From Candidatus Peribacteria bacterium RIFCSPHIGHO2_02_FULL_51_15 (lineage in GTDB: Bacteria; Patescibacteriota; Gracilibacteria; Peribacterales; Peribacteraceae), in assembly GCA_001788965.1 (NCBI GenBank), contig MFXU01000047.1, forward strand, positions 1-40,561: a DNA stretch of 40,561 bases, read 5' to 3'. Positions 3,762 through 40,561 of the stretch are shown in pieces (the stretch's first letter is position 1; each line of letters opens with the position of its first letter). The notes beneath the pieces are model-generated. The model saw only the letters and a list, made by a program, of their open reading frames with translations. It did not search any database and was not told the DNA's origin. A program made the translations under genes and the position numbers.

Positions 3762-3877
3762 CCGTTGTAGGAATTTGATTTTACCATAACATGCGTAGAT
3801 TTTTTGCGTTTTTTGGAAAGAAACCGAGGAGTCCGAAGAGTCCGAGGATTTAAAGGAATATATTATAGGAACATCTG

Positions 3878-3973
3878 AAAAATTGTTAAATTGCTAAATT
3901 GTTAAATTGCTAAGAATGTATAAAACGTGCGTTACGCTTGCGAACAATTTAGCCATTTAACAATTTAACAATT
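3878..3973. repeat. 8-bp repeat palindrome (AAATTGYT)n nested between 9-bp GAAACCGAA arms (3822-3851 and 4021-4046)
   Basis: Left arm 3878-3912, core CGTGCGTTACGCTTGCG 3926-3942, right arm 3943-3973. Confidence 0.85.
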
Positions 3974-6289: not shown

Positions 6290-6315
6290 AGCCCGGGGAA
6301 AACCGGGCTTTTTTT
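6290..6315 (+). terminator. Intrinsic terminator of zinc-ribbon gene
   Basis: AGCCCGG-ggaaaa-CCGGGCT then T-tract. Confidence 0.8.
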
Positions 6316-6326
6316 AAAAAAATTTT

Positions 6327-6412
6327 CACCTTCCTTACCTTCCTTACCTTCCTTACCTTCCTTACCTTCCTTACCTTCCTTACCTTCCTTACCTTCCTTA
6401 CCTTCCTTACCT
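6327..6412. repeat. 9-bp tandem repeat (TTCCTTACC)n
   Basis: About nine near-perfect consecutive units between convergent genes. Confidence 0.9.
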
Positions 6413-7421
6413 ACCTTACCTTTTCCCGTAATGCTTCCACCCCCTTCAAATCACAAACCAAAGTAGATTGCGTCACCCGGTGTACCGGTGTTTCCCCCGC
6501 CAGCCATTCATTAATCGAATGAAAAGACTCTTTATACATCTTTTGCGTGCTTTCCTCGGCATAAAAAGCGATATGCGGAGTTACCAGCACGTTGGGATGA
6601 CTGATCAGTTTTTCATTCCACTGGAAATCTTTTTCATGCTCCAGCACGTCAAGTAATGCATGCGAGATCTTCCCGTCGTCCAGAGCTTTAAGCAGCGCGT
6701 TTGAATCAATCAGCTCTCCCCGTGCCGTATTGATGATGATTGCCCCCGGTTTCATCTTGTTCAGCGCATGTTCGTTTATCAGGTGGTTTGTTTCCGGGAG
6801 AAGCGGCACATGCAGGCTTACTACATCGCTCAAACCCAGTACTTCCTCGAAATCCACATACTTAACCCCAAATTGAGTCTCCAGCTCGATAACCCGGCAT
6901 TTGTCGCAAGCCAGGATGTTCATGCCAAATCCGTGTGCGATTTTGGCCGTATTTATGCCGATCTTGCCGGTCCCTATTATCCCCATCGTTTTCCCCATAA
7001 GCGCCATCCCCCTAAGCCCGTGGTAATCGAAATTGCCTTCCCGGACCTGCGCTTTTGCCTCGGTGATCCGGCGCAACGCCGACAAGAGAAGGGCGAATAC
7101 ATGTTCGGCGATTACATGCGAGCCGTAATCCGGAACATTGCATACCGCGATATTCCGGGCTTTGCATGCATCGAGATCGATGTGGTTGAAACCCACTGAA
7201 CGGGTGGAAATCAGTTTCAGTTTGGGAAGTGACTTTATGACTTCCGCGGTAAATTTTGAATATATGAAACCGCTAACGACATCTTTATCCTTGCAGGCCC
7301 GGATGAGATCGATTCCGTTCAGAGATTCCGTGCGAATCTCGGCTTTGGGATATTGGTCCAGAACTGTTTTCAGGTCTTCGGAATCGACTTCAAGAAAGAG
7401 AATCGAAGGAGGCGGAGGCAT
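6411..7421 (-). CDS. D-2-hydroxyacid dehydrogenase family protein (NAD-binding)
   Basis: MALMGKTMGIIGTGKIGINTAKIAHGFGMNILACD, LLPETNHLINEHALNKMKPGAIIINTARGELID, NVLVTPHIAFYAEES; start set at MPPPPSILFLEVD because the upstream extension is repeat translation. Confidence 0.85.
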   Translation of the reverse strand: MPPPPSILFLEVDSEDLKTVLDQYPKAEIRTESLNGIDLIRACKDKDVVSGFIYSKFTAEVIKSLPKLKLISTRSVGFNHIDLDACKARNIAVCNVPDYGSHVIAEHVFALLLSALRRITEAKAQVREGNFDYHGLRGMALMGKTMGIIGTGKIGINTAKIAHGFGMNILACDKCRVIELETQFGVKYVDFEEVLGLSDVVSLHVPLLPETNHLINEHALNKMKPGAIIINTARGELIDSNALLKALDDGKISHALLDVLEHEKDFQWNEKLISHPNVLVTPHIAFYAEESTQKMYKESFHSINEWLAGETPVHRVTQSTLVCDLKGVEALREKVR

Positions 7422-10222: not shown

Positions 10223-10303
10223 GTAAGGAAAGTAAGGGAGGTAAGGGAGGTCATATTTTTTACCTTCCTTACTTTCCTTACTTTCATTACCTTCCTTACC
10301 TTT
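10222..10303. repeat. Inverted 9-bp repeat palindrome (GGTAAGGAA)n ... (TTCCTTACC)n
   Basis: Left arm 10222-10251 and right arm 10261-10303 around a short AT-rich loop. Confidence 0.85.
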
Positions 10304-10313
10304 CTAAAATCCC

Positions 10314-10342
10314 TTGACTTGTGAACGATCGTCCACCATTCT
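10314..10342 (+). promoter_or_regulatory. lexA promoter
   Basis: TTGACT (10314-10319), 17-nt spacer, CATTCT (10337-10342). Confidence 0.45.
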
Positions 10343-10359
10343 GGTGTACGATTGTATCC
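10321..10359 (+). promoter_or_regulatory. Two candidate LexA operators upstream of lexA
   Basis: GTGAACGATCGTCCAC (10321-10336) and GTGTACGATTGTATCC (10344-10359), related to the perfect palindrome GTGGACAATCGTCCAC upstream of rmuC. Confidence 0.6.
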
Positions 10360-10367
10360 AATCTTTT

Positions 10368-10976
10368 ATGACCCTTACGCCTCATCAAAGAACGGTTCTG
10401 AACTATATCACTGAATTTCAGAACAAACGCAGCTACTCGCCGTCGCTGGCCGACCTCGCCGTGGCCTTCGGTGTACGCAGCAAGAACTCGGTTGCCAAAG
10501 TGGTGAACACTCTGGTCCACGAGAAACAGATTGAGAAAGATCCGAAAGGCCGGATAAAAATCATCGCTATGGCTCATTTCGACGACCGGCCCGCTCCCCT
10601 GACTCTGCCGCTCTTCGGTCCCATTGCCGCCGGTTTTGCCGCCGCCGCCGAGCAGGACGCCACGGAACAAATACGGCTCGATCAATATCTGATCAAAGAC
10701 CGGGCTGCGACTTTCCTGCTGCGGGTAAAAGGCGACAGCATGATCAATGCCGGCATCCACGAGGGTGATCTGGTGATAGTTGACCGTACCTTTGAACCCC
10801 GGCCAGAGAATATCGTTGTCGGCATTATGGACGGCGAATTTACCCTGAAACGCCTGAAGAAAGACAAGGGAAAATATTATCTAAAAGCCGAAAATGACGA
10901 ATTCCCGGATCTGCACGCCCTCGACGAACTGAAGGTGGCGGGAGTAGTGGTGGGGGTGATTAGAAAATATCACTGA
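10368..10976 (+). CDS. lexA: LexA repressor (SOS regulator, S24 peptidase)
   Basis: N-terminal wHTH TPHQRTVLNYITEFQNKRSYSPSLADLAVAFGV, Ala-Gly cleavage site PIAAGF, catalytic GDSM and TLKRLKK. Confidence 0.92.
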   Translation: MTLTPHQRTVLNYITEFQNKRSYSPSLADLAVAFGVRSKNSVAKVVNTLVHEKQIEKDPKGRIKIIAMAHFDDRPAPLTLPLFGPIAAGFAAAAEQDATEQIRLDQYLIKDRAATFLLRVKGDSMINAGIHEGDLVIVDRTFEPRPENIVVGIMDGEFTLKRLKKDKGKYYLKAENDEFPDLHALDELKVAGVVVGVIRKYH

Positions 10977-11108: not shown

Positions 11109-11243
11109 TACCACTTCGCGTTTAAAACGTTCTTAATCAGACGCGCTGGCGGTATGGAGTTCTTGGCTTGAGTAAACGCTACGCGGTACGAGATGATGCC
11201 GTTACGAATGACCGATTAGTTATGTTTTAAATGCAAAATGGTA
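11109..11243 (+). mobile_element. MITE-like element copy 1 (135 bp) with TCA target duplication
   Basis: TACCACTTCGCGTTTAAAAC...GTTTTAAATGCAAAATGGTA; flanked by TCA at 11106-11108 and 11244-11246; reads identical to copies 2 and 3. Confidence 0.9.
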
Positions 11244-11435
11244 TCACTTTGCGAATAAACCAGCTGATTCTTTGCTGTTCAAATTTCTCTGCCCTTTCTT
11301 TGTGCGCGACAAAAAAAAGGGCGAAAGAAAACGCGCGCGCCACAGTCCCTCCTTTGGGCCGCTCTGAACCCCATGGCGCGCACCCACATGGCTCAATTAT
11401 TTATCGCCAACGCAGGTTCTTTTGCTCAAAGCTGA

Positions 11436-11570
11436 TACCACTTCGCGTTTAAAACGTTCTTAATCAGACGCGCTGGCGGTATGGAGTTCTTGGCTTGAGT
11501 AAACGCTACGCGGTACGAGATGATGCCGTTACGAATGACCGATTAGTTATGTTTTAAATGCAAAATGGTA
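11436..11570 (+). mobile_element. MITE-like element copy 2 (135 bp) with TGA target duplication, inserted in the 3' end of valS
   Basis: Same sequence as copy 1; flanked by TGA at 11433-11435 and 11571-11573. Confidence 0.92.
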
Positions 11571-14455
11571 TGAGCCAACCGCTCATCGATTTTCTTCAGC
11601 TTCTCTTCGACCTCCGTAAGCTTCCCCTTTTCCGCTTCCACAAGCGATGCCGGCGCACGTGAAACGAAGTCCTGATTCCGGAGCTTCTGTAAGAGGCCAT
11701 CACGATACCGCACGAGCGACGTCTGTTCCTTCAGGAGACTCTTTTTGACCTTCACCGGATCGAAGAGGCCCTCGAGTGAGAGATGAATCTCCGTGCCGGA
11801 GAGGAATGCGCTCGCGACGTTCGTGTGCTTGACCGGCTTCGCATCGATCATGAGCGTCCCCACATGCCCAAGTCGCCGGATGTGGGCCTCCTGGGACTGA
11901 AGGAGCTCGGCATGCTTCTTCGTGTAAATGAATACCGCAACGTCCTTCCCCGCTTCGATCTCCTGCTCCACCCGCAGCTTGCGAATCGCGGAGATGACAT
12001 CAATAAGTACTTGAAACTGCTCACGCGGAGTTATCCCTTTGCCCTCAGCAAGAGCAATGTCTACCGGCCAAGGATGTTTAATAAGAATATCGGCATTTTC
12101 ATGTTTTAGAGATGACCAAAGCTCCTCTGTGACAAAAGGACAAAATGGATGAAGTAATTGCAAGATTTCTCTGAGAGCGTTAACAAGAAATGGGAGATTC
12201 GATTCCCCTTTAGAAAGTTCCAGGTACCAATCACAAAAGAAGTCCCAAACAAAACTATATAAAGAATCCCCTGCAACGCTAACAGCATAATTTTCTAGGC
12301 CTAACGTAACTTTGCCACGCACAGATAATAGCTCGGAAAACAAAGCGAAATCTGCAAGTGTTTTTGGCTCATAAGCACTAGGTATTATTGCTTTCGGATC
12401 TAATTTCTCCTTTTCACACTGTATCAACACGAACCGTGCCGCGTTCCAGAGCTTGTTGACGAAATTTCTGTACCCCGCGATTTTCTCTTCATAAAGCCGC
12501 GTGTCGTTTCCCGGGCTTTGCCCAATGGTCATGGAAAGTCTCAAGGCATCTGCTCCGTATTTCGGGATGATATCGAGCGGATCGATGGCGGTTTCCGGGT
12601 GGCTCTTGCTCATCTTTTCCCCGTTTCTGTCCAAAACCAATCCGTGGAGATAAACCGTTTCAAAAGGAATTTCACCCGTCGCGTAAGTCGTCATCAGGAT
12701 CATTCGCGCCACCCAGAAAAACAGTATATCGGCGGCGGTTTCCAGAATCTGCGTCGGATGAAAATCCTGAAAATCAGGACTTCTCTTCAACATTTCATCG
12801 AGAGAGATGGAAAAATCATCGGCCAGTGAGGGATCTATAAGCGTCGACCATGTCCATAGTCCAGAAGAAAACCAGGTATCAAGCGTATCAGGATCCTGAT
12901 GAACCACCCCGCCGCAATGAGGACAACCGTCGATCGGTCTCGAAGAAACAATAATGCCGGATTGCCCACCGGCTGTGAGCTGTGAGCTGTGAGCTGTGAG
13001 CTGCTCATCACTCATAGCTGACCGCTCATCGCTTGTCTGCGCATTCTTTGCGTCACCGCACTTCGAGCAATAGTAAACAGGCACCCTGTGTCCCCACCAG
13101 ATTTGGCGGGAAATACACCAGTCCCGGAGATTATCTATCCAATTGAAATAAACTTTTTCAAATCTCTCAGGAATAATTTTTATTTCTCCGTTACGCACAA
13201 CAGATTGCATAATTTCCTTCAAGCTGAACAATTCTCCTTTCCTTGCCCCGCGTAGCCCGAAGGGCGTAGCGGGGTGCCTTCTTGCCCCTTCTTGTCGGCC
13301 GAAACCTTGGCGAAGGCTGATGCCTTCTTGCTCTTCCCAGGTGACTACCTTTTTATTTACATCAATAAACCACTGCTCCTTTATCTGCGGCTCCACTATC
13401 CCCTTCCCGCGATAGCTAACCGCTACCCGGTGAACGTAATTTTTATCCACTTTGACCAGTAATCCTTTGGCCTTCAATTTCTCGACGACTTTCGGCCGGG
13501 CTTCCTCGATCGGCATCCCCGCAAATTCGCCGGCGATCTGAAGCAAGCGGCCGTCGAAGCCTATTATCTGCTCGCGCTCAAGCTTGTGCCGCTCACTGAG
13601 CTCAAAATCGGTCATGTCGTGCCACGGCGTGATGGTCATCACTCCGGTTCCGAATTCCGGATCGACGATCTTGTCTTTTATCACCGTGGCTTTCACCGGC
13701 CCGTTTATCCATTCGGCGGTGAAAGTTTCCCCATCCTTGTATTTCGCGTACCGCTTGTCAGCGGGGTGCATCACGACATACTTGTCGCCGAATTTTGTCT
13801 CCGGGCGGGCGGTGGAGATCTGAAAGGGACCGTATTGAAAGGTGTAGTACGGCGTCTTTTCCTCGATGTATTCGATCTCGTCATCCGAAACCGTCGTCTG
13901 CATCTTCGGGTCCCAGTTCACCGCACGGTGGCCGCGGTAAATCAAACCATCTTGGTACATTTTCACGAAGACCTCGCTCACACAGCGGTTGAGCGTCGGA
14001 TCCAATGTGTAACGCTCCCGGGACCAGTCGCAGCTGGCACCCATCTTCCGGACTTGTCCGCGGATAGTCCCGCGGCTTTTGTCGACGAAATCCGCGATCC
14101 GCCGGATCAATTCTTCGCGCCCGAGCTTGGCCCGGGGGTCGGGAATATTCTCTTCTTTCTGAATCTGTTTTATCACGACGCTTTCGGTGGCGATGGAAGC
14201 ATGGTCGGTGCCCGGCACCCAGAGCACGCGCTTGCCGCGCATACGATTGAACCTGATAAAAATATCCTGTAGAGCGAGCATCACCGAGTGTCCCAGATGC
14301 AGCTGCCCCGTCGCATTCGGCGGCGGCATGCTTATCGTAAAAGTTTCAGCTTTCTCATCTTTGCAACTTTCCGGCCGGAAAGCTCCGCTCTTTTCCCACA
14401 TTTCATAAATCCGATCTTCGGAGGCCTTCGGGTCGTAAGTTTTGGGAAGCGGCAT
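11543..14455 (-). CDS. valS: Valine--tRNA ligase with in-frame repeat insertions and MITE-derived C-terminus
   Basis: PPPNATGQLHLGHSVMLALQD, LWVPGTDHASIATE, DWCISRQIWWGHRVPVYYC, DPDTLDTWFSSGLWTWSTL, KMSKSHPETAIDPLDII. Confidence 0.93.
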   Translation of the reverse strand: MPLPKTYDPKASEDRIYEMWEKSGAFRPESCKDEKAETFTISMPPPNATGQLHLGHSVMLALQDIFIRFNRMRGKRVLWVPGTDHASIATESVVIKQIQKEENIPDPRAKLGREELIRRIADFVDKSRGTIRGQVRKMGASCDWSRERYTLDPTLNRCVSEVFVKMYQDGLIYRGHRAVNWDPKMQTTVSDDEIEYIEEKTPYYTFQYGPFQISTARPETKFGDKYVVMHPADKRYAKYKDGETFTAEWINGPVKATVIKDKIVDPEFGTGVMTITPWHDMTDFELSERHKLEREQIIGFDGRLLQIAGEFAGMPIEEARPKVVEKLKAKGLLVKVDKNYVHRVAVSYRGKGIVEPQIKEQWFIDVNKKVVTWEEQEGISLRQGFGRQEGARRHPATPFGLRGARKGELFSLKEIMQSVVRNGEIKIIPERFEKVYFNWIDNLRDWCISRQIWWGHRVPVYYCSKCGDAKNAQTSDERSAMSDEQLTAHSSQLTAGGQSGIIVSSRPIDGCPHCGGVVHQDPDTLDTWFSSGLWTWSTLIDPSLADDFSISLDEMLKRSPDFQDFHPTQILETAADILFFWVARMILMTTYATGEIPFETVYLHGLVLDRNGEKMSKSHPETAIDPLDIIPKYGADALRLSMTIGQSPGNDTRLYEEKIAGYRNFVNKLWNAARFVLIQCEKEKLDPKAIIPSAYEPKTLADFALFSELLSVRGKVTLGLENYAVSVAGDSLYSFVWDFFCDWYLELSKGESNLPFLVNALREILQLLHPFCPFVTEELWSSLKHENADILIKHPWPVDIALAEGKGITPREQFQVLIDVISAIRKLRVEQEIEAGKDVAVFIYTKKHAELLQSQEAHIRRLGHVGTLMIDAKPVKHTNVASAFLSGTEIHLSLEGLFDPVKVKKSLLKEQTSLVRYRDGLLQKLRNQDFVSRAPASLVEAEKGKLTEVEEKLKKIDERLAHTILHLKHN

Positions 14456-14501
14456 TGGGAGAAAGTCTACTACATGAGAGCTGTAAGCCAAATTATGATT
14501 A

Positions 14502-19390: not shown

Positions 19391-19618
19391 AGAAATTATG
19401 GGAAGCGGATATACGCCCTTCCCCTTTTAAAGGATTTTTGCTTTGAGTGGACTTACATATGAAGGTCTGGTGGCAATTGGCTATTAGCTAACTGCCAACT
19501 GCCAGCGCCGCAGGCGCTCGTACGTAAATCCACAAAAATCCGGTGATAAAGGAAAGAGCGTGGATCCATCATATACCGCCCCTGACGTTTTTTCCAGTTT
19601 TATGTGATAGGCGATGAT

Positions 19619-19921
19619 AAATTGCTAAATGGCTAAATTGCTACGCCCATTCAATCAACTCAGGTCGACCTTATTCAGCCACAATCCCCAATGTCATCAT
19701 GGGCGACCTGATACCACTTCGCGTTTAAAACGTTCTTAATCAGACGCGCTGGCGGTATGGAGTTCTTGGCTTGAGTAAACGCTACGCGGTACGAGATGAT
19801 GCCGTTACGAATGACCGATTAGTTATGTTTTAAATGCAAAATGGTATGAGCTTGTCGAAGGTCGCAAGCGAAACGCACGTTCTTGCTTGCAAACAATTTA
19901 GCAATTTAACAATTTAGCAAT
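19619..19921. repeat. 8-bp repeat palindrome (AAATTGYT)n split by nested insertions
   Basis: Left arm 19619-19642, right arm 19892-19921, core CGCAAGCGAAACGCACG at 19863-19879. Confidence 0.7.
19712..19846 (+). mobile_element. MITE-like element copy 3 (135 bp) with TGA target duplication
   Basis: Same sequence as copy 1; flanked by TGA at 19709-19711 and 19847-19849; lies in the rpsO-pnp spacer. Confidence 0.92.
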
Positions 19922-19940
19922 CTGTTCCGAAGTCCAAAAA

Positions 19941-22224: not shown

Positions 22225-24462
22225 ATGTCTTATGATGATCCGATACTCGGCCCGCTTAACGAATCGCAGAGAGAAGCGGTGCTGAAGATAAAAGGCCCAG
22301 CGCTGATACTCGCTGGAGCCGGCAGCGGAAAGACACGCACGCTGACCCATCGCATCGCTTACATGATCGAACAGGGCATACCACCCTGGCAGATATTGGC
22401 GGTTACTTTTACGAACAAAGCTGCCGCGGAGATGAAAGAACGCATTCGGACCCTGCTCAAAATCACCAACGTCGAGGGCACCGAACGCGAGCATCTGCCG
22501 GCAAGCGGGACTTTCCATTCCATTTGCGCCCGGATACTCCGCCGCGATATCGAAAATATCGGTCGAAACAGGAACTACGTGATTTACGATTCCGACGATC
22601 AGAAAAAGGTCATGCAGCATGTTTTGCGAAATATGAAGATCCCGCCGGAGGAGCTGAAGCCCCGGGCGGCCATGGCCCACCTCGGCCGGTTCAAATGCGA
22701 AGCTCTGAGTCCTCATGAAGTGAAAACCCAAGCCACGACTTACACTACCCGGCGTATGGCCGAAGTATATTCCGCTTACCAGCAGGAGCTGAAAACCGCC
22801 GACGCGCTGGATTTCGACGACTTGATACTCGAAACCATCCGGCTTTTCAAAGAATGTCCGAAAATTTTGGAAAGATACCAAATGACCTGGCGTTATCTGC
22901 ATGTCGACGAATATCAGGACACGAACCATGCGCAGTACCTTTTCATCAGCCTGCTGGCAGCAGGGCAGCGGAACCTGTGCGTCATCGGCGATCCGGATCA
23001 AGCGATCTACGCTTTCCGCGGCGCCGATATCCGGAACATCCTGGAGTTTCAAAAAGAATATCCGAATGCCGTTTCGGTGAAGCTGGAACGAAATTATCGT
23101 TCGACTCAGCAGATCCTGGATGCCGCCGACGCAATCATCGCGGCCAATCCGAACCGGCCACAGAAAAAGATGTGGACTGACCGGAAAGACGGGAAGCTGA
23201 TCACGCTGTCGGAAGTTTTGGATGAGCGGCGCGAGTCCGAGGAAGCGGTGAGAGGGGTGCTGGAACGGCAAAAAGACGGCGTGCCGCTGATCGAGCAGGC
23301 GATTTTGTACCGCACCAATGCCCAATCCCGCCTGCTTGAGGAAGCCTGCCTCCGGGCTTCGGTCCCCTACCGGATCTACGGCGGGGTGAAATTTTACGCC
23401 CGCCGCGAAGTGAAGGACGTAATCGCTTATCTGTATGTCCTCCTCAATCCGAACGACACGGTATCGCTTCTCAGAATCATAAACGTCCCTTCCCGGAAAA
23501 TCGGCGAAACGACTATCGGCCGGATGCAGAATTTTTGTAATGAACGAAGCCTGTCTCTGTGGCAGGCTCTCAGGCACATCGAAATGGTCGAAGGCCTTAG
23601 TGACCCGGTAAAGCAGCGGCTGATCGGTTTCGTGGAAATGATCGAAAGCCTGAAAAAGCTTTCGGAAACCGAAGTCGTAAGCGGTCTTGCGGCAAAACTG
23701 ATCGAAAAAACCGGACTCGAAAAACATCTGCGGGATGACACCGACGAAGGCGAGACGCGGTGGGAAAACGTGCTGGAGCTGCTCTCAGTGACCAAAAAAT
23801 ACGACTATCTCCAGCCGCCCGAATCACTTACCAGCTTCCTCGAAGAAGTCGCGTTGATTTCGGAAGTGGATGCCATGACCGAAACCCGTTCCGATTCGCT
23901 GACTCTCATGACACTGCATCTTTGCAAAGGACTGGAATTCAGCTCCGTTACGGTCGTCGGCTGCGAAGAGGGGCTGCTGCCGCACAGCGCGGGGCTTTTC
24001 GATCACAACCAACTGGAAGAAGAACGCCGCCTGCTTTACGTCGGCATGACCAGAGCGAAAGACCGTCTGACTCTGCTTCACACCATCCGCAGGACGCTGT
24101 GGGGGAAAACCGAAAGTAACCTCCGAAGCCGGTTTTTGGATGACCTGCCGCACGCAGTGATCGAAGTGAAAAGCGATACCCTAAACAGCAAGTTCGGCTG
24201 GCTCACCAGTTCTGTAGTCGCCGCAACGTCCCAACCCAAACCCCAGCCCCAACCCTATAACGACTTCAATCAGGACACTTCTGCTGAAGAATGGCTGCAG
24301 CCAATCGAGGAAGAGCTCATCGACGGAACGCGCATACTCCACCGGACTCTCGGCGAAGGCACGGTCCTAAAGCGCAGCGGCGACGTGGTGGAAGTGCTTT
24401 TCGACAATGGGAAAAAGAAACATCTGGCGCTGGGAATAGCACCGATAAAGATACTCAATTAA
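22225..24462 (+). CDS. UvrD/PcrA-type ATP-dependent DNA helicase
   Basis: LNESQREAVLKIKGPALILAGAGSGKTRTLTHRIAYMIE, HVDEYQDTNHAQY, GDPDQAIYAFRGAD, LMTLHLCKGLEFSSVTVVGCEEGLLPH. Confidence 0.95.
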   Translation: MSYDDPILGPLNESQREAVLKIKGPALILAGAGSGKTRTLTHRIAYMIEQGIPPWQILAVTFTNKAAAEMKERIRTLLKITNVEGTEREHLPASGTFHSICARILRRDIENIGRNRNYVIYDSDDQKKVMQHVLRNMKIPPEELKPRAAMAHLGRFKCEALSPHEVKTQATTYTTRRMAEVYSAYQQELKTADALDFDDLILETIRLFKECPKILERYQMTWRYLHVDEYQDTNHAQYLFISLLAAGQRNLCVIGDPDQAIYAFRGADIRNILEFQKEYPNAVSVKLERNYRSTQQILDAADAIIAANPNRPQKKMWTDRKDGKLITLSEVLDERRESEEAVRGVLERQKDGVPLIEQAILYRTNAQSRLLEEACLRASVPYRIYGGVKFYARREVKDVIAYLYVLLNPNDTVSLLRIINVPSRKIGETTIGRMQNFCNERSLSLWQALRHIEMVEGLSDPVKQRLIGFVEMIESLKKLSETEVVSGLAAKLIEKTGLEKHLRDDTDEGETRWENVLELLSVTKKYDYLQPPESLTSFLEEVALISEVDAMTETRSDSLTLMTLHLCKGLEFSSVTVVGCEEGLLPHSAGLFDHNQLEEERRLLYVGMTRAKDRLTLLHTIRRTLWGKTESNLRSRFLDDLPHAVIEVKSDTLNSKFGWLTSSVVAATSQPKPQPQPYNDFNQDTSAEEWLQPIEEELIDGTRILHRTLGEGTVLKRSGDVVEVLFDNGKKKHLALGIAPIKILN

Positions 24463-24564
24463 ATTGCTAAATTGTTAAATTGCTAAATTGTTCGCAAGCG
24501 GAACGCACGTTGTTGTGCGCTCGTCCACGAACATGGTGGTCATTCTAACAATTTAGCAATTTAA
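24461..24564. repeat. 8-bp repeat palindrome (AAATTGYT)n containing the stop codons of both convergent flanking genes
   Basis: Left arm 24461-24491, core CGCAAGCGGAACGCACG 24493-24509, right arm 24546-24564. Confidence 0.85.
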
Positions 24565-25745: not shown

Positions 25746-25785
25746 TTCAACATGATAGGAGAATCAAACAGTAGGAAGCAAGAAT

Positions 25786-25892
25786 AAGGTAAGGAAGGTA
25801 ATGGAGGTAAGGAAGGTAAGGCAGGTGACGAAACAAAAGAAAAACGAGGCACCTTCCTTACTTCCCTTACTTTCCTTACCTACCTTACCTTT
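25786..25892. repeat. 9-bp repeat palindrome with conserved core
   Basis: GGTAATGGAGGTAAGGAAGGTAAGGCAGGTGACGAAACAAAAGAAAAACGAGGCACCTTCCTTAC...; closely resembles 28193-28360. Confidence 0.85.
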
Positions 25893-26780: not shown

Positions 26781-28192
26781 AAATATCACGGCTAACTTAC
26801 GGCTTTTTGATTTCCTTTGTCATCGCCGTTTTTCTGCTTCAGTGGTGGCAAAGTCCGCATTCAGTCGCCAATCTGTGGTTTTCGATTTCCGGCGCGGGAA
26901 TATGCTCGGTGGTCATGATTTTTTTCCGCCGCAGAGAGATCGGCTTCCTGTCGCTCGCCATCTGCGCCGGCGTCTCGGCGGCCTTCATCGCGGTGATTCA
27001 CTCGGCTCACGTGACAACGAATCGGGACATCGAATCTTTTGCCGACGGGAAAAAAATGACGCTGCTCGGCCGCGTCGCGGATATGCCCGACCGCCGGCCG
27101 GATGTGACGAAATACAAAATCCAGGTCACTGCCATAACCCGCGGCAAAGTAAAAAAAGAAGTAACCGGCAATGTTTTGGTAAACGACAAAAACGGTTGGC
27201 CGAGGTATCGGTACGGTGACCAGGTCAAAGTCAGCGGAACACTCGAACCGCCGGGCAAAATAGAGGATTTCGACTATGGCGCTTACTTGAGCCTCAGCGA
27301 CATCTACGCCATAGTGCCCTGGGGCCGGATCGAAGCGGTTCCCGCAGCTGCAAAGACCGGAACAATTTCAAAAATATTTTCAGCTCTCTTCGGTTTGCGC
27401 GAAACCGCCGAAGGCTGGATAAACCGCGTGCAAACCGAGCCGCATGCCTCGCTGCTCTCAGGATTGCTCACCGGATCGCGCCGCGGCATACCGGAAAATC
27501 TGACGGCATCTTTTCGCACCGCCGGGCTGTCTCACATCGTGGCCATCAGCGGTTACAACGTGACGATAATACTGGCTCTCCTTTCCGGGCTTCTCTTTTG
27601 GCTGCCGATAAAAGCGCGGTTTCCCTTTCTTCTGATAGGCATCGTCGCCTTCACGATTTTCGTCGGCGCCGGATCGACCGTCGTCCGCGCGGCGATAATG
27701 GGCATACTGGGTTTGGCCGCTCTTGAGTCCGGCCGCCTTCCTGCCATGCGGTTAAGCATTCTCTGGACCGCGTTTTTCATGCTCATCTTCCGTCCGGCAT
27801 TCATCTGGGACGACGCGGGTTTTCAGCTTTCATTCCTGGCCGTCATCGGCATCGCCGGGCTCGGCGCGCCGTTAAAAAAAATATTGAACCGTGTGCCGGA
27901 ATCTTTCGGCCTCAGGAAAGCGCTGGTAGCCACTCTCGCCGCGCAGATCGCCACTCTTCCGCTCACAGTTTTTCTCTTCAGGCAGATTTCACTCGTCGCG
28001 CCGTTTTCAAATATCATCGTTGCTCCGCTGATCCCGGCCGCGATGCTGCTCGGCTTCATCGGCGCGATACTGGGCGCCGTCTACTGGCCGCTTGGTTTGG
28101 CCGTAAGCTATCCGGCTTGGGCGTTTCTGGAAATCATCATCAAAATCGCAACCTGGAGCGCAGCGATTCCGTGGGCAGCGATTAAATTTTAA
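26777..28192 (+). CDS. comEC: ComEC/Rec2 family DNA uptake channel, short form
   Basis: LLSGLLTGSRRGIPENLTASFRTAGLSHIVAISGYNVTIIL, GAGSTVVRAAIMG; overlaps rsmA by ATGA. Confidence 0.9.
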   Translation: MKISRLTYGFLISFVIAVFLLQWWQSPHSVANLWFSISGAGICSVVMIFFRRREIGFLSLAICAGVSAAFIAVIHSAHVTTNRDIESFADGKKMTLLGRVADMPDRRPDVTKYKIQVTAITRGKVKKEVTGNVLVNDKNGWPRYRYGDQVKVSGTLEPPGKIEDFDYGAYLSLSDIYAIVPWGRIEAVPAAAKTGTISKIFSALFGLRETAEGWINRVQTEPHASLLSGLLTGSRRGIPENLTASFRTAGLSHIVAISGYNVTIILALLSGLLFWLPIKARFPFLLIGIVAFTIFVGAGSTVVRAAIMGILGLAALESGRLPAMRLSILWTAFFMLIFRPAFIWDDAGFQLSFLAVIGIAGLGAPLKKILNRVPESFGLRKALVATLAAQIATLPLTVFLFRQISLVAPFSNIIVAPLIPAAMLLGFIGAILGAVYWPLGLAVSYPAWAFLEIIIKIATWSAAIPWAAIKF

Positions 28193-28360
28193 AAGGTAAG
28201 GTAAGTAATGGAGGTAAGGAAGGTAAGGAAGGTGACGGAACAAAGGAAAACGAGATACTTTCCTTACTTTCCTTACTTTCCTTACTTTCCTTACTTTCCT
28301 TACTTTCCTTACTTTCCTTACCTTCCTTACCTTCCTTACTTTCCTTACTTTCCTTCCCTA
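28193..28360. repeat. 9-bp repeat palindrome with long right arm
   Basis: (GGTAAGGAA)n, core GGTGACGGAACAAAGGAAAACGAGATA, then about eleven TTCCTTACY units. Confidence 0.9.
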
Positions 28361-38469: not shown

Positions 38470-39618
38470 CTATCTGATCGCATACGGATGCACGATGGAG
38501 CCCAGACCGAAAACAGCTCCCAGTCCGAGAACGAGTATTGCCAGAAGAAGCAGCTTCCCGGCCCGGCCCATTTTGCCGGCTTCATATGCAGCCAAAGGAT
38601 AAACCGGCGTTATCGCCCGTCCGATGGAAGTGATCGAACCCCAGATATGCAGCGGCATAATAAGCATTATCGCCAGATATCCGCATAAAAGCGTGAGCGT
38701 AAGCGAGATTTTTGCTTTTTCACGCCAGGCGTTTTTTAGCGCGAGAACCGCGGCCGGGGCAACGAACAAAGCGAACAAGGCGACCGAAGAAAGCGTATAT
38801 ATCGAATAGCCTTTGGTCCCGAAAAGAATCGACAAAGGCGCGATCAAAGGCCAGGTCGCGTTGTCGCTGTTCACCAGGAACGGGATTGACCCGAATATTT
38901 TTGAAAGCAGCGCCTGCCAAAGTATGAAAACCGCAATCGCCGGTAAAGTCCAAAAAACCGAAGGCCTGTCCCGCCGCAAAGAAAACCAGATAAAAACCAT
39001 TACGACCAAAGGAAAATTGATTTCCCGGGTTATGACAAGCAGGCAAAGTAGCAAGCCGTTCCAAAAATCGATGCCTTCGCGCTTCTTGAGCCGTAACAAT
39101 AAAATCGTCAAAAGCGCGATATTCAGCGGTTCGGCGGTCGAGAAATGCAGCCCGATCAAAGCAGCCGGGGAGAAAGCCATAGCACAAGTCTGGAGGCCTT
39201 TTCCGGTCATCCGATAAGTCAGATACCCGCACATAAGAAGCGAAAAAACGGAAATCAAAAGGAACGTCCAGGGCAGCCAGGCGATATTGCCGAATGCGAG
39301 TATGAAAGCCAGAAACGGGTATAAAAATCGCTGATAAGCGTAGGCTCCGGGGGAAACCCCCTTGAGCTCGTTCCACCGATCGGGGCTAAGGAAGGCGGGA
39401 ATCCGTTGCGCAATGCGGAAATATTCGGCTCCGTCATACGAAGGCACTCCGAGCACGACGAAACCCGAAGGCAGTGACTGCTGATCTGCGACCTCTTTTC
39501 CCAGGTGGAAAAGCGCTGAAACCCGAAAACCGTAAGGATATATGTACCAGACAACGATTCCGGCAAGCAATATGCAGGCTAAAACGATAAAAGCCTTTGA
39601 TTTGGTTGCTGGTTTCAT
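38470..39618 (-). CDS. Polytopic membrane protein, glycosyltransferase-like
   Basis: Multiple TM helices; SVSPGAYAYQRFLYPFLAFILAFG and similar, resembling DUF2029/PMT-like proteins. Confidence 0.6.
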   Translation of the reverse strand: MKPATKSKAFIVLACILLAGIVVWYIYPYGFRVSALFHLGKEVADQQSLPSGFVVLGVPSYDGAEYFRIAQRIPAFLSPDRWNELKGVSPGAYAYQRFLYPFLAFILAFGNIAWLPWTFLLISVFSLLMCGYLTYRMTGKGLQTCAMAFSPAALIGLHFSTAEPLNIALLTILLLRLKKREGIDFWNGLLLCLLVITREINFPLVVMVFIWFSLRRDRPSVFWTLPAIAVFILWQALLSKIFGSIPFLVNSDNATWPLIAPLSILFGTKGYSIYTLSSVALFALFVAPAAVLALKNAWREKAKISLTLTLLCGYLAIMLIMPLHIWGSITSIGRAITPVYPLAAYEAGKMGRAGKLLLLAILVLGLGAVFGLGSIVHPYAIR

Positions 39619-39623
39619 CTGAG

Positions 39624-39704
39624 CAATTGCTAAATTGTTAAACTGTTAGAAATAACTTGCGCTTCGCTTGTAAACAATTTAGCCATTTAACAATTTAACA
39701 ATTT
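39624..39704. repeat. 8-bp repeat palindrome (AAATTGYT)n
   Basis: AATTGCTAAATTGTTAAACTGTT ... AACAATTTAGCCATTTAACAATTTAACAATTT. Confidence 0.85.
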
Positions 39705-40471: not shown

Positions 40472-40561
40472 TACCACTTCGCGTTTAAAACGTTCTTAAT
40501 CAGACGCGCTGGCGGTATGGAGTTCTTGGCTTGAGTAAACGCTACGCGGTACGAGATGATG
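40472..40561 (+). mobile_element. MITE-like element copy 4, truncated by window end
   Basis: Identical to the first 90 bp of copies 1-3; preceded by TGA (40469-40471). Confidence 0.9.

Follow-up and report, generated by a model that had tools for sequence, protein, structure and literature searches.

In Coxiella burnetii, the functional genes affected by QMITE1 and QMITE2 carry the MITE at their 3' ends, and tolerance of the C-terminus has been offered as the explanation (PMC5896051). An amidase gene of Erwinia has lost its normal stop codon to an RU-1 element lying at its end, and this element now supplies a new C-terminus (PMC2759123). The Rickettsia palindromic elements, small repeats of about 150 bp, also ended up in coding sequence (reviewed in PMC10969869). 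An element that supplies a new protein end is an already known kind of event; the instance described here, its host group and its element family seem to be new, and a search of the open-access literature found no description of the element or its family in this lineage.

The Peribacterial element resembles QMITE1 and QMITE2 in being a multi-copy MITE in a small genome (PMC5896051). Element and host are different, however, and the Peribacterial copies are nearly identical, so that the earlier stop codon can be rebuilt exactly. The enterobacterial RU-1 adds a longer stretch (PMC2759123), whereas the tail from the Peribacterial element has nine residues in ValS and stays below ten in most frames. 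In Rickettsia, translation passes in frame through the palindromic element and on into the rest of the host protein (PMC10969869), whereas ValS ends inside the element. We consider it very probable that a recent, tolerated MITE insertion rewrote the end of ValS, and valS offers a clear and recent case of an essential enzyme whose end a mobile element has rewritten and whose earlier end can be recovered with single-base precision.

The present and former ends of ValS

The window is the whole stretch of DNA analysed, 40,561 nucleotides of one contig. The features around the end of valS are as follows.

10314..10976, plus strand: lexA, convergent neighbour of valS (Pfam LexA_DNA_bind and Peptidase_S24; order kept in 13 relatives)
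11109..11243, plus strand: MITE copy 1, between lexA and valS, with TCA on both flanks
11426..11428, minus strand: orphaned former valS stop codon TGA (joined flanks ERLAQL-TGA; relatives' ends at the same place)
11433..11435, no strand: left target duplication TGA (sequence; equal TNA triplets at 83 copies)
11436..11570, plus strand: MITE copy 2 (135 bp), source of the valS end (100% identical to most genome copies; edges fixed by 91 full copies)
11543..11545, minus strand: present valS stop codon TAA, within MITE copy 2 (translation)
11546..11572, minus strand: the nine acquired codons, HTILHLKHN (translation)
11571..11573, no strand: right target duplication TGA, on the valS side (sequence; equal TNA triplets at 83 copies)
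11543..14491, minus strand: valS as now read (longest TTG-started ORF), ending in the element (Pfam tRNA-synt_1, Anticodon_1 and Val_tRNA-synt_C)

The sequence-only reading held that the valS frame enters MITE copy 2, which codes for its final residues, and translation confirms this: the minus strand reads ...KIDERLA, then HTILHLKHN, then TAA. Upstream of HTILHLKHN the frame reads VEEKLKKIDERLA, and the present end of ValS is ERLAHTILHLKHN. The first acquired codon, CAT (11570-11572), lies partly in the element and partly in the duplicated TGA. The last two residues of ValS and its stop were lost, and nine element-encoded residues and a TAA were gained. At the other end of the gene, the ATG at 14453-14455 is a more likely start than the TTG of the longest ORF.

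When the flanks are joined over one TGA, they read GAG CGG TTG GCT CAG CTT TGA, that is, ERLAQL followed by a stop. In nearly 40 Peribacterial relatives the ValS chain stops one to six residues, mostly two or three, after the one that aligns with the junction, with final residues such as ERLAAI, ERMQQL, DRLAQLG, ERLKSL and ERLKAL; the reconstructed end fits this pattern, and none of the relatives has a long, unrelated C-terminal extension. The pre-insertion stop had been called exactly recoverable, and here the joined flanks and the relatives' ends agree, the earlier end being deduced from these flanks and from relatives at about 60% identity. The profile of the ValS tRNA-binding arm (PF10458) matches residues 934-986 over profile positions 11-63 of 66, with position 63 exactly at the junction. 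By this match, the predicted arm domain is intact to within about its final two or three positions, and this completeness would explain why the insertion was tolerated.

CysS is a second such case in the same genome. Its chain now reads ...RDTGKG followed by HTILHLKHN, which replaces QELKRR. In nine of 11 relatives the CysS chain runs exactly six residues beyond the junction before it ends, as in the joined-flank reading; this agreement is a second confirmation of the joined-flank method.

Other genes have also had their ends rewritten. An acyl-CoA ligase (ATP-grasp_5) now ends in ...IVVG followed by YTILHLKHN, a nucleotidyltransferase has lost 21 residues and gained DTILHLKHN, a cobalamin adenosyltransferase has lost 13 and gained IPLRV, and a DJ-1/PfpI protein has the new tail DTTSRLKRS. 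The ends of some hypothetical proteins are rewritten as well. In a further six genes the duplicated triplet, TGA or TAA, serves as the stop codon, and the encoded protein is not altered. Read from either end, every frame of the element meets a stop within 21 residues; we rejected the idea that stops in every frame are a built-in adaptation, since 13-16% of shuffled sequences do equally well.

The element and its distribution in the genome

The host draft genome amounts to 1.18 Mb in 63 contigs, and its ValS relatives place the host in Ca. Peribacteraceae (Peregrinibacteria, a lineage of the Candidate Phyla Radiation). Exact element ends occur 117 times for the left end and 112 times for the right, corresponding to about 115 copies, or roughly one per 10 kb. 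Our copy analysis used 91 full copies, fetched from stretches around the copies. The length is 135 bp in 90 of these, and 75 match the valS copy at every base, which indicates that the burst was recent and that the valS copy is very young. Equal flanking triplets, always T-N-A, border 83 copies of 135 bp; this regularity, together with the ends of ValS in relatives, takes the valS observation beyond chance. The triplets in the full set are TGA, TCA, TAA and TTA, and an orientation-specific (IS200/IS605-like) insertion was discarded as an explanation because the almost uniform TGA flanks that had suggested it came from a list ranked by similarity to a TGA-containing query. Besides copies 1 and 2, the window holds two others.

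19712..19846, plus strand: MITE copy 3, intergenic, with TGA on both flanks
40472..40561, plus strand: MITE copy 4, truncated here where the window stops; on the contig it is a 147-bp variant

The element has the traits of a bacterial MITE: it is short and without a transposase gene, and it has many copies, terminal inverted repeats and a target site duplication. The inverted repeats are imperfect (TACCACTTCGCGTTTAAAAC versus TACCATTTTGCATTTAAAAC), and the ends are of the type TACCACTTCGCG...TGGTA, the outer bases of copy 2 being TACCA...TGGTA. The IS1031 group of the IS5 family makes a 3-bp duplication at TNA targets (PMC12016507), a trait that the 83 copies share. The element differs from this group in having no transposase inside, with none of IS1031 type found in the draft genome, and its terminal repeats differ from those of one IS1031-group example (PMC12016507). 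The search for IS5-type transposases (PF01609, PF13586 and PF13340) found none in the draft genome, where a multi-copy IS can drop out of a short-read bin. No autonomous partner with matching ends was found in the host's own draft genome or at the PF01609 loci of relatives, and the element end was not found in viral contigs. The mobilising transposase was probably of the IS5/IS1031 type.

Related elements occur in several other genera of Peribacteraceae. They have TNA duplications and related ends resembling TACCxCTTCGCGTTTAAAA, are mostly 126-138 bp long, and are about 65-75% identical to the element described here. For most of these relatives, a segment near the middle of the element is an inverted match to the left end, which we take as a structural feature of the family on the evidence of these per-sequence matches. 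The pairing of left end and internal segment is 87.8% in the alignment, on which covariation is weak.

Tandem duplications bounded by element copies are found at the window end (C47:40472-42312) and at C31:7320-8815, and the acyl-CoA ligase and DJ-1/PfpI genes lie within such duplications. Their pattern, A-el-B..C-el-B..C-el-D, is what two copies recombining unequally would be expected to leave, though assembly could also account for it.

Taking the 83 equally flanked copies, we joined the flanks, called the open frames that cross the junction, and compared the result with that for TNA sites drawn at random from this genome. The contrast is large, although the ORF calls rest on length and codon use and may be wrong in single cases: one copy lies in a gene interior where 55 are expected, and 64 lie outside ORFs where about 17 are expected. 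Two copies fall in the first 25 codons (4.4-4.8 expected), four in the last 11-25 codons (about 3 expected) and five in the last 10 codons (2.1-2.4 expected). The final codons of genes take the element about as readily as intergenic DNA does. About 115 young copies in a reduced genome of 1.2 Mb come close to a natural insertion-tolerance experiment that marks alterable sites.

Tolerance and its alternatives

In the explanation we favor, a 135-bp non-autonomous DNA transposon, moved by a transposase probably of the IS5/IS1031 type, would have inserted into a TGA, which reads TCA in the coding strand, two codons short of the valS stop, with duplication of three bases. Translation of valS would then enter the right end of the element, read nine codons by accident of frame, and stop at TAA. 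Like the insertions at other gene ends, this one would have been tolerated, without any function of the tail being required. The rewritten gene ends are the survivors of tolerated insertions. To judge by where copies have inserted and by how complete the arm domain is, the ValS tail is probably nearly neutral, and a longer ValS protein is presumably produced.

The element could instead be kept at gene ends for a useful role, such as terminating transcription or stabilizing mRNA 3' ends, and this we regard as unlikely. A long hairpin forms when either strand is folded (z about -3.2 and -3.5), the valS copy sits between convergent genes, and stop codons are hit by seven copies where 1.1 are expected, a comparison of small numbers in which the stops TGA and TAA are themselves TNA sites. 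Hairpins are, however, expected for any element with inverted ends, the element contains no hairpin followed by a T run, and no known RNA family was found at the valS insertion site.

It is very improbable that assembly through the repeated element attached unrelated sequence to the end of valS. Many contigs of the draft genome do end inside element copies, and eight of the 91 full copies have unequal flanks or odd length. Against this, the valS copy has the same TGA on each side, the joined frame reaches its stop after two more codons, in keeping with relatives, and the convergent order of valS and lexA in 13 relatives supports the assembled junction. We rejected misassembly on these matching duplications, the agreement in length and the lexA synteny.

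The sequence-only reading went further than a tolerated insertion and had the element domesticated as coding sequence. Its account of a MITE insertion, of a replaced end and stop in ValS and of a reconstructible earlier end stands, but domestication is not supported. On that reading HTILHLKHN is kept by selection and improves or regulates ValS and the other tailed proteins; the same tail, with at most its first residue changed, does end ValS, CysS, the acyl-CoA ligase, the nucleotidyltransferase and a hypothetical protein. The tail is set by the element sequence and the frame, however, and the same or similar tails arise wherever the element fell near a stop; other frames give IPFCI, IPLRV and DTTSRLKRS. 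The valS copy, being identical to most others, is too young for adaptation to show, the majority of copies are located outside genes, and the density at gene ends is about that of intergenic DNA. Because there are several different tails on young, identical copies and tolerance explains the pattern, we do not accept domestication and give it hardly any credence. Equally implausible is a portable C-terminal tag, with xTILHLKHN altering the stability, place or partners of ValS, CysS and several other proteins alike, under selection.

Other repeats in the window

Positions 11247-11432, between MITE copies 1 and 2, are part of another dispersed repeat; 124 bases of this interval are 78% identical to another stretch (L186 1246-1367). 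Between genes at 6310-6422, 10226-10302, 25768-25891 and 28191-28360, a 9-bp repeat (ACCTTCCTT and its complement) forms arrays whose units stand in direct and inverted order. Repeats of 8 bp of the type TTAAATTGC, adjoining the common stretch AACGTGCGTTACGCTTGCGAACAATTTAGC, also lie between genes, in both orientations, at 3870-3973, 19609-19922, 24451-24511 and 39614-39704.
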